Source: Tetradesmus obliquus (Eukaryota > Chlorophyta > Chlorophyceae > Sphaeropleales > Scenedesmaceae). From it: a stretch of 64,000 nucleotides of DNA. The DNA is taken from assembly GCA_030272155.1 (NCBI GenBank), contig CP126207.1, positions 1,612,001 to 1,676,000 of the forward strand, given 5' to 3'. The translations under genes were made by a program, and so were the position numbers. Below, piece after piece: positions 1,517 to 63,918 of the stretch. Within the stretch, counting starts at the first letter, position 1. Every line of letters starts with the position of its first letter. The notes below the pieces were generated by a model, which worked only from the letters and a program-made list of their open reading frames with translations, ran no database searches and was not told the DNA's origin.

Positions 1517-4500
1517 ATGCAACACACGAAGATCATCAATAAGAAGCTGTCTGCCAGCCTCTTCGGCAAAGAGCAGGGTGAAGGCTCCTCGCTAAACACG
1601 AATGGCAGCACAGCTTGCTCCGATGACAGCAACGGCAGCAGCGATGGCTTCCAGGTGAGCTGAAGCTCAAGTGCGCGCCGAGAGCTGTCCAATCAGCAGC
1701 GTGCCACGCTATCCACCTAAATGATCTTGCGTCTTGTTACCGACAGGGGTATCAGCAGCCTTCCTCTCCCTGCTATCAACCGGCTGTCGGTCAGCCAACA
1801 CCCGACAGCACCACGCAGCTCACGAAAGTGCCAGCAGTAAGTGGCCTTATTAGCAGCTCCCGGGTTGCTGTGTGAGGGTACGCTACGCTGGCAGAACAGC
1901 GAACCGGTGCCTGCCGCAAGAGCAGCGACCCTGGAGGGCACCCTGCTGCTGTCTGTTGTGGCTCACAATCACTGCTGTCAGCTGTGATTCGGGTGCTGCA
2001 AAGGCAGTGTCATGGGGCTGTACCATCATATCTTAAAGCAGTAGTCACAGCTTCGCAGATGCAGTCACAATGGCTGCAGTTGGGCCAGCAGCACTCACCT
2101 GCTGCACAGCAAGCGTGCTCCAACCCTGCAGGACGCCAGCAGTGGCAGCCATGCAAGCAAACTGGGAAGTCCGTCTCAGACTTTCGGTTTCCTACTTCAT
2201 CAGCAAGTGAAACAGCAAGTTGTGGCTTCACTTTGTGCAACTAGCTCCTGCCCATCATCTTGCTGCCTTGGCGCGTTGCAAATCCTGCAGGCGTCGGAGT
2301 CAAGCTGCTCACCCCAGCTGCAGCCAGCGAAGGATGCCGCAGCATCAGCAGCATCTGCGCAGCAGCAGCCCCCAGCCGCACAGCAGCAGCAGCAGCAGCG
2401 TGGTGGCGTTCCTGCAAGCGGCGCCGGCAGGAGCAGCTTCTTCTTTGCCCGTGTGCCTCCCACCATCACGCAAGAGCAGCTGGTGGAGTTGTTCAGCAAG
2501 TATGGCGCAGTAGAGGACCTCAACTTGTTCAGGCCCTTTGCTGAGGCCAAGACCAGCAAGGTGGGCCATGAGTTCAATGTACATACGCATGTATTGTGTA
2601 TGCATGATCATGATAGAAGCTATAACACAGTCCGTTCATGTCCAAGTATGGCGCAGTAGAGGACCTCAACTTGTTCAGGCCCTTTGCGGAGGCCAAGACC
2701 AGCAAGGTGGGCCATTACTGTAATGTATGTATGCATGTATTGTGTATGCATGTCATGGTAGAAGCTATAACACAGTGCGTTCATGTTCAAGTATGGCGCA
2801 GTAGAGGACCTCAACTTGTTCAGGCCCTTTGCAGAGGCCGAGACCAGCAAGGTAGGCCATTGGTGTAATGTATGTATGCGTGTATTGTGTATGCATGTCT
2901 TGATAGAAGCTATAACACAGTCCGTTCATGTTCAAGTATGGCGCAGTAGAGGACCTCAACCTGTTCAGGCCCTTTGCGGAGGCCAAGACCAGCAAGGTAT
3001 ACCGTTGGTTGACGGATGCGATATATCACAACTTGGAACTGTAACACAGTCCCTCCATGTGCTACATCCAAGGCAGTTTGTGTGTGTCTCTGCCGCATGG
3101 CGTGTGTGATGAGGTGTCTGGCAGAGCTGGCAATGTTGGTTTGATCACCGCTGCGTGCTGCGCCATCTGCATGGCGTCAATTGCCGTTTGTAATGCTGCG
3201 TCTCTGCTGCGTGCTGCGCCATCTGCATGACATCAAGTGCCTTTTGTAATGCTGCGCCTCTGCTGCGTGCCGCGCCATCTGCATGACGTCAAGTGCCTTT
3301 TGTAATGCTGCGTCTCTGCAGCGTGCTGCGCCATCTGCATGACATCAGCGCCCGTTTGTAGTGCTGCGGCATTGTGCGGTTCAGCTCTGCCGCGGCAGCT
3401 GCACCCGCCAAGTCTGTGCTGCACGGAAACTTCAAGCGGACTGACACTGCTCTTTTTCAATGCTGCGTCTCTGCAGGGCTGCGGCATTGTGCGGTTCAGC
3501 TCTGCTGCGGCAGCTGCAACCGCCAAGTCTGTGCTGCACGGGAAATTCAAGTGGACTGATACGGCTCCGCCGATGGTTGTGGAGTGGGTCAATGAGGACA
3601 AGATGCGCAGCACCTGCTGCAAGGCTGGTGAGTAATCCAGTTAAATTAAACTAAATTCGATTATCTGCACAGCTGTCAGCAGTGTATAGCAGCAGTAGCA
3701 GTAGCAGCACCTCACGTGGTGGTCTGGTGCCAGTGGGCTGGTCGTGTGGTTGTGTGGCGGTTGTGGAGTGGGTGGTTGAGGGCAAATGCGCAGCAGGTGC
3801 TGCAATTCTGGTGAGCTGATTCAGTAATCTGCAGAGCTGGCAGCAGTGTGTAGCAGTGGTAGCAGTAGCAGCACCTTATGTGGTGGTCTGGTGGCAGTGG
3901 GCTGGTGAGCTGCCTGTGTGGCGGTGGTGGAGTGGGTGATTGAGGACAAGATGCGCAGCACCTGCTGCAAGGCTGGTGAGCTGATTCAAGAATTTGCACA
4001 GCTGACAGCAGCGTGTAGCAGTGATAGCAGTAGCAGCACCTCATGTGGTGGTCTGGTGGCTGTGTGGTGGTCGTGCAGTGGGGGAATGAGGGCAAATGCA
4101 CAGCATCTGCTGCCAGGCGGGTGAGTTGCTTTAAAATTCTGCACAGGTGACAGCAGTATGTGGCAGTGGCAGCAGTAGCAGCACCTCATGTGGTGCGCAC
4201 ACAGAGACATGTGGTGCGCACACAGAGACGCCATGTGCAACCGCCTCTCCTACACTCTGCTGACACAACTTGAAACCAGGGGCACCCTCCGGTTTTGGTG
4301 TTGCTGCTCGTGTTCCTTGCTCGTGCTTTGCTTCTCATCCTCTATCAGACTCCAACAAGGTAGTGCTTGAGCCAAGTTGAAAACCGCCCGCTCCAAGCAG
4401 TCCCTCTGCTCTGCTGGTATGTCTGTAAGCATGCGCATGCCACTCGTTTTTGCTGCTGCTGATGTTTGTCCTGCTGCAACAGGCTCCAACGAGGTAGTGC

Positions 4501-63300: not shown

Positions 63301-63918
63301 CGCATGCTGCTGCTGCTGCTGCCGCAGGTCTGCCATGAAGAGTGCAGTGCCATCTGTGGAAGAGCCTGTGGGCAGGCTGGAGGGCATTCCACATTGGCCT
63401 GGAAGACACTGCATAGAGTGTCTCTCTCATAAAGTCAAAGTGCTTTCTGGCTGAACCATCACAATTGCCTGCCGACACGCATGCTGCTGCTGCCATGCAG
63501 GTCTGCCATGAAGAGTGCCGTGCCGGCTCTTGTTGAGCCTGTGCGCAGGCTGGAGGGCATCGGGGAGCAGGCAGTGGCCTGGCTGACACAGCAAAAAGTC
63601 AAAATACCATATTCTACTTTGTCTGAGGTCCTTTCTCTCACAAACCAAGTACCAAAGCGTGGTTCATGCCTCCACTGTTCACAGTCGCCTGCCGTTTTGC
63701 AGGGGCCGGTTCAGTCCCGAAAGTTTATTGTATTGTATTGTATTGTTGCATGCTGCTGCCGCCGCAGGTCTGCCATGAAGAGTGCAGTGCCGTCTGTGGA
63801 GGAGCCTGTGGGCAGGCTGGAGGGCATTGGGGAGCAGGCAGTCGCCACACTCAAGGCACTGGGGCAGCAGCAGGAGGTGGCAAGCAGGCTGCCGCCACGG
63901 CTGCACTGCGTTGAGAAG
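57335..63918 (+). CDS. CBP60-like (calmodulin-binding protein 60 pattern) protein, 3' end beyond the window
   Basis: Exons 57335-57510, 58939-59131, 60461-60610, 62401-62561 and 63768-63918 join with matching phases (2, 0, 0, 2, 0); the last donor leads out of the window. The start ATG gives a short Ser-rich N-terminus. A Cys-rich stretch follows (CGASSCSLCEHNQSRRC), perhaps zinc-binding. The order of beta-strand-like motifs then parallels plant CBP60 proteins: LAVGLVDESG, LQVCVLDAKRY, AEVAVVSLPME, SSYRLLLWLQ, SEAFVVVTTRAR and PVGRLEGIGEQAV. CBP60 members are DNA-binding immune regulators in land plants; the match here is by pattern only. The alternative is another Rel/p53-like fold. Introns are crowded with boundary echoes. 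Confidence 0.6.
57961..58938 (+). repeat. Head echoes of CBP60-like exon 2
   Basis: Acceptor-led relatives of the exon 2 start lie after CAG at 57961 (very diverged), 58320, 58639 and 58757. The last (SGCGASSCSLCEHNQSRRCN) is nearly intact; the true exon starts at 58939. A separate (CCACCACACAGTTGACCTTG)n run of four units lies at about 58024-58100. Confidence 0.8.
59275..59608 (+). repeat. Two tail echoes of CBP60-like exon 2
   Basis: NCGAALAVGLVDDAG...LPGLVLQ ends at 59412 (donor lost to AAAAGG). A second copy (RSHLKAKDVSRDYLSA and on) ends near 59608. A 20-base CTCAACTGCGCCAACTGGGG triplet repeat precedes the first. Confidence 0.9.
59701..60460 (+). repeat. Seven head echoes of CBP60-like exon 3
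   Basis: Copies of VCVLDAKRYKELN after CAG start at 59701, 59814, 59898, 59993, 60083, 60180 and 60270; the true exon starts at 60461. Each copy is only 30-60 bases and is separated by CTG/CCG runs. Confidence 0.96.
60694..61850 (+). repeat. Five to six tail echoes of CBP60-like exon 3
   Basis: Copies of ALLRWEGGAEVAVVSLPME with or without ILDK end at 60770 (GTGAGT), 61043 (donor lost, CTGGGC), 61194 (GTGGGC), 61354 (GTAGGC) and 61510 (GTGAGT). A truncated copy lies at 61798-61850. Intron-head text (GGGCGAATATAGCCTATGTA) is copied in at least two. Confidence 0.94.
61769..61786. repeat. (TA)n microsatellite
   Basis: Nine TA units lie in an intron of the CBP60-like gene. Confidence 0.9.
61937..62400 (+). 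repeat. Three head echoes of CBP60-like exon 4
   Basis: Copies of KASLSELQCFSISG lie at about 61937, 62053 and 62185. The last extends to SGKASSYRLL before a stop. The true exon starts at 62401. CTG runs precede each. Confidence 0.93.
62715..63767 (+). repeat. Five head echoes of CBP60-like exon 5
   Basis: Copies of SAMKSAVPSVEEPVGRLEGI after GCAGG start at 62715, 62975, 63149, 63328 and 63501; the true exon starts at 63768. The 63149 and 63328 units are almost identical over 179 bases, including the intron piece with CATAAAGTCAAAGTGC. Confidence 0.96.

Follow-up and report, generated by a model that had tools for sequence, protein, structure and literature searches.

Partial tandem exon copies at splice junctions and their relation to intron length in a Tetradesmus obliquus genome

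Long introns are usually ascribed to mobile elements or to slow drift through insertions and deletions, and tandem exon duplication is known as the doubling of complete exons with both splice sites. The closest described case to the arrangement reported here is that of the potato RNA-dependent RNA polymerase (RdRp) gene, for which the relevant passages of PMC4974935 describe a tandem duplication over an intron-exon boundary that copied the intron tail, the acceptor and the exon head, happened once, created a new intron and put exon sequence into the mRNA. The same segments are copied in tandem in the genes of the green alga Tetradesmus obliquus examined here, starting from a window (the whole analysed stretch of 64,000 nucleotides, C17:1612001-1676000) in a genome assembly of 104.66 Mb and 17 contigs, with a GC content of 56% over 19 sampled stretches. 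The published T. obliquus genome (108 Mb, GC 57%; PMC5966456), by all signs of the same species, has longer introns than the algae it was compared with (mean 462 bp, compared with means of 230-302 bp for four further green algae); the passages of that paper which deal with intron length give no mechanism, and the copies described below would supply one.

Partial exon copies in the window and elsewhere in the genome

Four window genes with 28 exons were annotated by hand, encoding an RRM protein, a pyridoxal kinase (PdxK), a phytepsin-like aspartic protease and a partial product at 58.9-63.9 kb (4 exons, frame set by eye), whereas minus-strand genes and an SBP-like gene were assessed by eye only. 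After masking of simple repeats, each exon plus 60 nt on either side was searched against the introns next to it and, at gene ends, against as much as 1500 nt of outward sequence; arrays were located by a diagonal scan, as self-BLAST for near-identical duplications misses known arrays. This gave 55 matches upstream of exons, 51 of which were used further as head copies (intron tail, acceptor and exon head), the others being two intron-flank repeats at RRM exon 5, a weak match at 57955 and an inner fragment at 39729. Downstream of exons there were 38 matches, comprising 33 tail-side copies (exon tail, donor and intron head; two of them end before the donor), four copies behind stop codons and a single minus-strand match that was taken as chance; a fifth post-stop copy, at 7174, was added by hand. 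Heads were present at 18 of 25 acceptors and tails at 13 of 25 donors, and tails also lay behind all three stop codons examined (RRM, PdxK and protease genes, with copies at 7097, 33502 and 42818). None of the window matches was a copy of a whole exon, no upstream match reached a donor and no downstream match reached an acceptor. The original prediction had put the numbers at about 55 head and 40 tail copies, with heads only upstream and tails only downstream, and both the counts and the order (51 heads up, 33 tails down) were found as it had described in the four annotated genes, of the six that it covered.

The innermost full exons of the PdxK and protease genes splice into uninterrupted proteins, which match pyridoxal kinases (best E 5e-72) and prophytepsin (E 5e-139) across the exon joints in PDB searches. 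Independent protein evidence came from the D1 protease gene (L035, on contig C3), which holds a 48-nt head copy with an intact AG: a hand-spliced stretch was identical at 193/193 residues to the photosystem II D1 protease of PDB entries 1fc7 and 1fc6, and the crystallised protein has only the full-exon version, which indicates that this copy is not used. The crystallised protein is presumably from the same species, formerly Scenedesmus obliquus. At the protein level, the single-copy products of PdxK, the phytepsin-like protease and the D1 protease stretch support the view that copies are left out of the product, and we infer that every intron with copies is spliced.

A Pfam chaperonin search of the genome gave 96 matches on 11 contigs, from which nine CCT/Cpn60 loci on nine contigs (one on C17) were taken; exon chains were built from profile hits, and a splice-site search defined 44 acceptors and 44 donors, the remaining edges being hit edges. 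Around the 73 exons of these genes we found 44 heads upstream, one inverted head, 60 tails downstream and 13 inner pieces, with heads at 16/44 defined acceptors, tails at 17/44 defined donors, and copies in eight of the nine genes, on as many contigs. Neither whole-exon copies nor wrong-side copies were detected among these 73 exons. Complete exon copies with both splice sites, which the original prediction had both denied for the window and named beforehand as evidence against itself if found elsewhere, thus numbered zero in the window and zero in the nine genes.

Of 20 further 10-kb stretches taken at round coordinates, one (L006, G000:C2:700001-710000) was all N; local direct repeats were present in 13 of the 20, covering a mean of 10% of bases, and were absent from block-shuffled versions of the same 20 stretches, ruling out chance similarity as their origin. 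A proteasome gene in one stretch had copies at two of four exon hits (two upstream, five downstream). A Pfam proteasome search gave 40 matches with few overlapping partial hits, indicating that profile hits alone understate the copies. Tandem arrays were also found outside genes, with ten in 17.6 kb of window stretches taken as intergenic (8398-8591, 9953-10324, 10989-11466, 51796-52156 and 54009-54548 among them), and this genome may be generally prone to tandem duplication. Splice boundaries are thus not the only sites of such copies, which also occur over stop codons, and tandem arrays occur in stretches taken as intergenic.

The number of copies was closely related to intron length. In 68 introns with both junctions defined, from 13 genes including housekeeping genes, intron length was described by a base of 322 bp and an increment of 134 bp for each copy (r 0.85), and copy number accounted for approximately 70% of the length variance. 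Copies were present in 41 of these introns (10 with heads only, 6 with tails only, 25 with both), which averaged 835 bp, compared with 325 bp for the 27 introns free of them. The distinct route of intron growth that had been proposed from the window sequence is thus borne out in the genes examined.

Divergence and decay of the copies

If a copy is identical to its exon at birth and then decays freely, and if silent sites of the exon do not change faster than neutral ones, divergence at fourfold sites (d4) should be at most twice that at zerofold sites (d0). Over 90 arrays with 193 copies, one copy being drawn per array, d4/d0 was 4.45 (95% interval 3.65-5.59), with values of 4.35 in 43 single-copy and 4.96 in 44 multi-copy arrays. 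The sample includes the post-stop copies of the RRM gene (2/193 copies, 1/90 arrays), for which codon positions are unreliable as the frame is broken upstream. Forty-four of the 193 copies had no zerofold change and still differed at 112 of 454 fourfold sites (approximately 25%), and d4 did not track d0 (rho 0.11, P 0.15, 165 copies). The intron flank, alignable in 55 of 150 copies, was 16.8% diverged versus 5.0% at zerofold sites in 53 copies with alignable flank, a ratio of 3.5 (2.4-5.3). Higher mutability of fourfold sites was rejected as the cause, since base and CpG composition predict a ratio of 0.94-1.02. The copies seem to have been well diverged at silent sites before they lost function, and simple identical self-duplication does not suffice.

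Recent changes point to copies that are no longer constrained. Private changes, scored where at least three other copies of an array agree (28 arrays), numbered 5/935 at zerofold and 21/173 at fourfold sites in the functional exon, and 116/3716 and 46/646 in the copies (P 5e-7). Splice dinucleotides were intact in 138 of 146 copies with exact junctions (AG 69/73, GT 69/73), a loss of approximately 2.7% per site that is close to the private zerofold change of 3.1% in copies, in a test that allows a 1-base shift and so hides about one fifth of losses (chance rates 0.21 and 0.18). Among 46 gaps in 12,000 nt of copies, 43 shift the frame and three are multiples of three; calibrated against the flanks, where 2.8 gaps per 100 nt go with 16.8% divergence, this amounts to approximately 2.3% divergence. 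Together the three measures point to a brief time as dead sequence, approximately 2-4% divergence within a total of approximately 25%, and with a residual fourfold bias of 2.3 the copies look dead now, with no coding constraint on recent changes.

A toy simulation with constant selection gave fourfold/zerofold ratios of private changes of 4.6 for the exon and 4.7 for the copies, and one with recent death gave 16.5 and 3.6, the observed values being 22.7 and 2.3. Constant weak selection on the copies fits the private rates and the overall ratio by our own arithmetic, but was rejected because it does not explain why most gaps shift the frame. A functional role that rotates among copies of a single haplotype is disfavoured, as dead copies would have to stay clean by luck, but may apply to short pieces. 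Four-gamete incompatibilities occurred in 17 of 28 arrays; homoplasy is uncontrolled in this count and no inference was drawn from it.

Origin of the copies

The account which we consider probable is that tandem duplication of exon edges, filtered by splicing and selection and often joining diverged alleles, has lengthened introns with copies that are now dead. Segments mostly of 80-280 bp (median period 138) straddling an exon edge would be duplicated in tandem repeatedly; the extra partial exon, having a single splice site, would stay in the intron or behind the stop codon and be tolerated, while whole-exon copies would be purged by selection. The copies would have been parts of working exons until recently, with approximately 3% divergence since death, and lie approximately 25% from today's exon at fourfold sites. 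As copies so diverged at silent sites appear to have been dead for so short a time, a large number of the duplications probably brought together two alleles that had diverged beforehand, instead of doubling a single allele. The copies and their order, the single-copy proteins of three genes, the relation to intron length and the pattern of divergence were observed directly. Both the filter by selection and the recombination between alleles are what we infer from these patterns.

The fixed order of heads and tails is geometry, not a finding about selection, since tandem duplication over one exon edge necessarily puts the partial copy beyond the intact exon: when an intron-to-exon segment is doubled the rest of the exon stays with the downstream copy, and when an exon-to-intron segment is doubled it stays with the upstream copy. 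The order therefore speaks against scattered insertion and against loss from whole-exon duplicates, and is silent on selection. The absence of whole-exon copies is not geometry alone. When the 75 observed periods (median 138) were randomly distributed over exons with a median of 151 nt (n=52) and introns of 200-322 nt, 15% of whole-exon plus junction events were predicted to be whole-exon copies, and none was found beside 74 junction arrays (P 6e-6). The tails behind all three stop codons suggest that what these sites share is a boundary between sequence under constraint and sequence free to change.

Whether duplications favour junctions was assessed in the same 68 introns, which have copies at 66 junction sides (35 head, 31 tail). 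Repeats internal to the intron, away from copies and junctions, were found by BLAST in five introns (nine pairs), and the diagonal scan gave four internal arrays, including one that is probably a tail array. Under random placement, 29-49% of arrays would be internal, with P values resting on 74 arrays versus 4. A further 21 arrays lie where exons are not resolved, and if all of these were internal the internal share would be 25/99. Faster, two-sided decay of intron-only repeats explains part of the shortage, and an excess of duplications at junctions is likely, though not settled. The original prediction that short duplications arise often and survive when they span a junction is incomplete: it implies many intron-internal duplications and a d4/d0 of at most 2, where few internal repeats and a d4/d0 of 4.45 were observed. 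A common break position for the heads and tails of one exon was not supported over 28 exons (mean absolute overlap 46 observed, 54 random).

Several observations weigh against the favoured account. The third of copies with the most similar flanks have a flank divergence of 9% and a d4 of 24%, a comparison biased by the ranking on flanks; imported alleles should differ in their flanks too, so these copies weigh against diverged alleles. In addition, vegetative cells of the Sphaeropleales are considered basically haploid, according to a passage of PMC5966456, and allele-to-allele events would then have to occur in zygotes. The fourfold/zerofold ratio of private changes in copies is 2.3 (1.7-3.1) and not 1, with 23 for the exon, and the internal arrays are too few for a purely uniform neutral process. 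Finally, the process is uneven, as the chaperonin gene L029 (G000:C2:2084001-2089800; 10 exon hits, eight resolved introns of 191-434 bp) has no copies and the chaperonin genes L031 and L032 have few, although copies are abundant in most other members of the family that were sampled.

A more specific origin, which we put forward tentatively as less likely true than false, is that the copies are scars left by recombination between alleles that had strongly diverged, arising when a break in an exon is mended with the homologous chromosome as template. One end would invade the conserved exon, copy past the splice site into the intron of the homolog and then be end-joined, so that the old head or tail of the exon remains as the copy while the functional exon takes the homolog's version; invasion would work in exons and rarely in diverged introns, and homology would be needed only in exons. 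Such repair would account for the one-sided order, a break point within the exon, the shortage of intron-internal arrays, the ready-made synonymous divergence, and splice flanks that are intact but often dissimilar. Self-duplication of one allele probably also occurs, for example in the RRM exon 4 array.

A simple neutral ratchet, with identical self-duplication by slippage or sister-chromatid exchange followed by free decay, is an unlikely explanation for the copies as a whole. It explains the order, the tolerance and the intron growth, some arrays fit it (the RRM exon 4 tails have 93% matches over the whole 145-bp period), and the age of copies tends to increase with distance from the exon (d0 0.071 for the farther copies versus 0.045, P 0.05). 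However, it needs a d4/d0 of at most 2, which is exceeded in the 90 arrays and also in the 43 with a single copy, and the flank/d0 ratio of 3.5, a d4 that does not rise with d0 and the failure of mutability as an explanation all argue against it.

It is improbable that the copies are functional, whether as alternative exon ends, decoy splice sites or coding reserves under selection. The strong fourfold bias, the AG and GT intact in 138/146 copies and the private-change ratio of 2.3 would fit such a role, but constraint on private changes is much weaker in the copies than in the exon (P 5e-7), 43/46 gaps shift the frame, and splice dinucleotides are lost at approximately 2.7%, near the approximately 3% at zerofold sites, as expected for dead sequence of one age. 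We regard an assembly artefact, with unresolved haplotypes or read errors stitched in tandem, as very improbable: the copies do resemble diverged haplotypes, but they occur in 8/9 chaperonin genes on as many contigs, in the same order and with graded divergence and period. Least credible of all is duplication of whole exons with later loss of one half of each extra copy, which would also yield partial exons with one splice site but should leave wrong-side copies equally often, and none was found beside 104 same-strand CCT copies and 84 window copies.

Arrays of the window and comparison with known systems

All arrays given here are on the plus strand and were found by both the exon scan and the diagonal scan, apart from the PdxK exon 1 tail copy, which was found by the exon scan. 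Within the RRM-protein gene (1517-7081, plus strand; functional exons 1517-1654, 1747-1836, 2132-2206, 2291-2560, 3477-3627 and 4772-7081, stop set by eye), exon 4 has a tail array of three copies with a period of 145 (2497-3009), exon 5 a head copy (3357-3567) and a tail array of three copies (3575-4195), and exon 6 a head array of three copies (4346-4829), while two tail copies with a period of 77 span the stop codon (7020-7250). The frame of this gene breaks near 6420-6480 in the long last exon (at about 6440-6480), which may reflect a small unrecognised intron, a sequence error or a real shift.

The PdxK gene (27449-33190, plus strand) has seven functional exons and a complete open reading frame of 373 aa. 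Exon 1 is followed by one tail copy (27654-27715), and head arrays of two, two and three copies precede exon 2 (27808-28131), exon 3 (28475-28804) and exon 4 (28937-29518), the last also having a tail array of five copies (29517-30717). Exon 5 has single head (30786-30985) and tail (31174-31373) copies, exon 6 a head array of seven copies (31563-32510) and one tail copy (32516-32871), and another tail copy spans the stop codon (33083-33661). At many acceptors and head copies, for example at 31563-32450, (CTG)n-CAG tracts stand in place of the expected pyrimidine tract.

The phytepsin-like protease gene (34186-42715, plus strand; 11 functional exons, complete open reading frame of 542 aa) has single head copies at exon 3 (35393-35586), exon 6 (37492-37707), exon 8 (38892-39184) and exon 11 (42330-42609), and head arrays of two copies at exon 5 (36488-36959), three at exon 7 (37912-38256) and seven at exon 10 (40226-41338). 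Its tails comprise one copy at exon 4 (35888-36172), two at exon 5 (36962-37289), three at exon 7 (38265-38812), two at exon 8 (39170-39630), three at exon 10 (41321-42057) and two that span the stop codon (42594-43160). In the last, partial gene, exon 58939-59131 has one head copy (58755-59000) and two tail-side copies (58989-59605), and exon 60461-60610 has seven head copies (59698-60502) and six tail-side copies (60527-61851), one tail-side copy in each set being short of the donor; head arrays of three and five copies precede exons 62401-62561 (61918-62488) and 63768-63918 (62711-63846). The exonic part of the copies is narrow in size over all scanned loci (heads median 62 nt, interquartile range 52-77; tails 64 nt, 49-83), while exon lengths range widely.

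Other repeats of the window were noted, with their gene context read by eye. Tandem repeats at 48082-48407 and 48619-49053 (period 90, 3.7 copies, 97%; and period 195) lie in the Gln-rich last exon of the SBP-like gene; their periods are multiples of three, so exon-internal duplications may be tolerated where constraint on the protein is low. LRR-like tandem repeats (17774-18913, minus strand) lie within a long open frame at 15.5-18.9 kb. An open stretch at 12240-13602 resembles the end of a reverse transcriptase or long interspersed nuclear element (LINE) with a (GATGAT)n tail, and similar tails, of which one lies after the stop codon of PdxK and before the tail copy there, occur at approximately 33320-33454, 43804-43881 and 44169-44260.

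The copies amount to a genuine and unusual way for introns to grow, seen across many contigs of this algal genome, and to a countable source of intron length that differs from mobile elements or indel drift. Zerofold, fourfold and splice-site positions each allow a separate dating of every copy, and the silent-site age paradox is the part likely to surprise specialists. If many duplications did join diverged alleles, the arrays preserve a history of recombination between alleles within individual genes; if they are scars of repair from the homolog, every copy would be the relic of an allele since replaced, and intron length would count such events. As each copy resembles half an exon, the arrays could also mislead gene predictors.

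Within the open-licence PMC literature, as judged from titles and the starts of abstracts, we found no description of such arrays in an alga. Introner-like dispersal was not detected for the one array tested, as a 280-bp piece of the RRM array had matches at its own locus alone, at three places. Tandem exon duplication likewise places exon sequence in tandem within a gene, but complete copies numbered zero here. The Rogers model of AGGT exonic duplication, as described in PMC4974935, shares the interaction of tandem duplication with splicing; in that description an exon-internal segment is duplicated and gives a new intron, whereas here it is the edge of the exon that is doubled, with no new intron position observed. 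Unlike the potato RdRp gene, the three genes with protein evidence here have single-copy products, an intron already present becomes longer, and such events are found in 41 of 68 introns.

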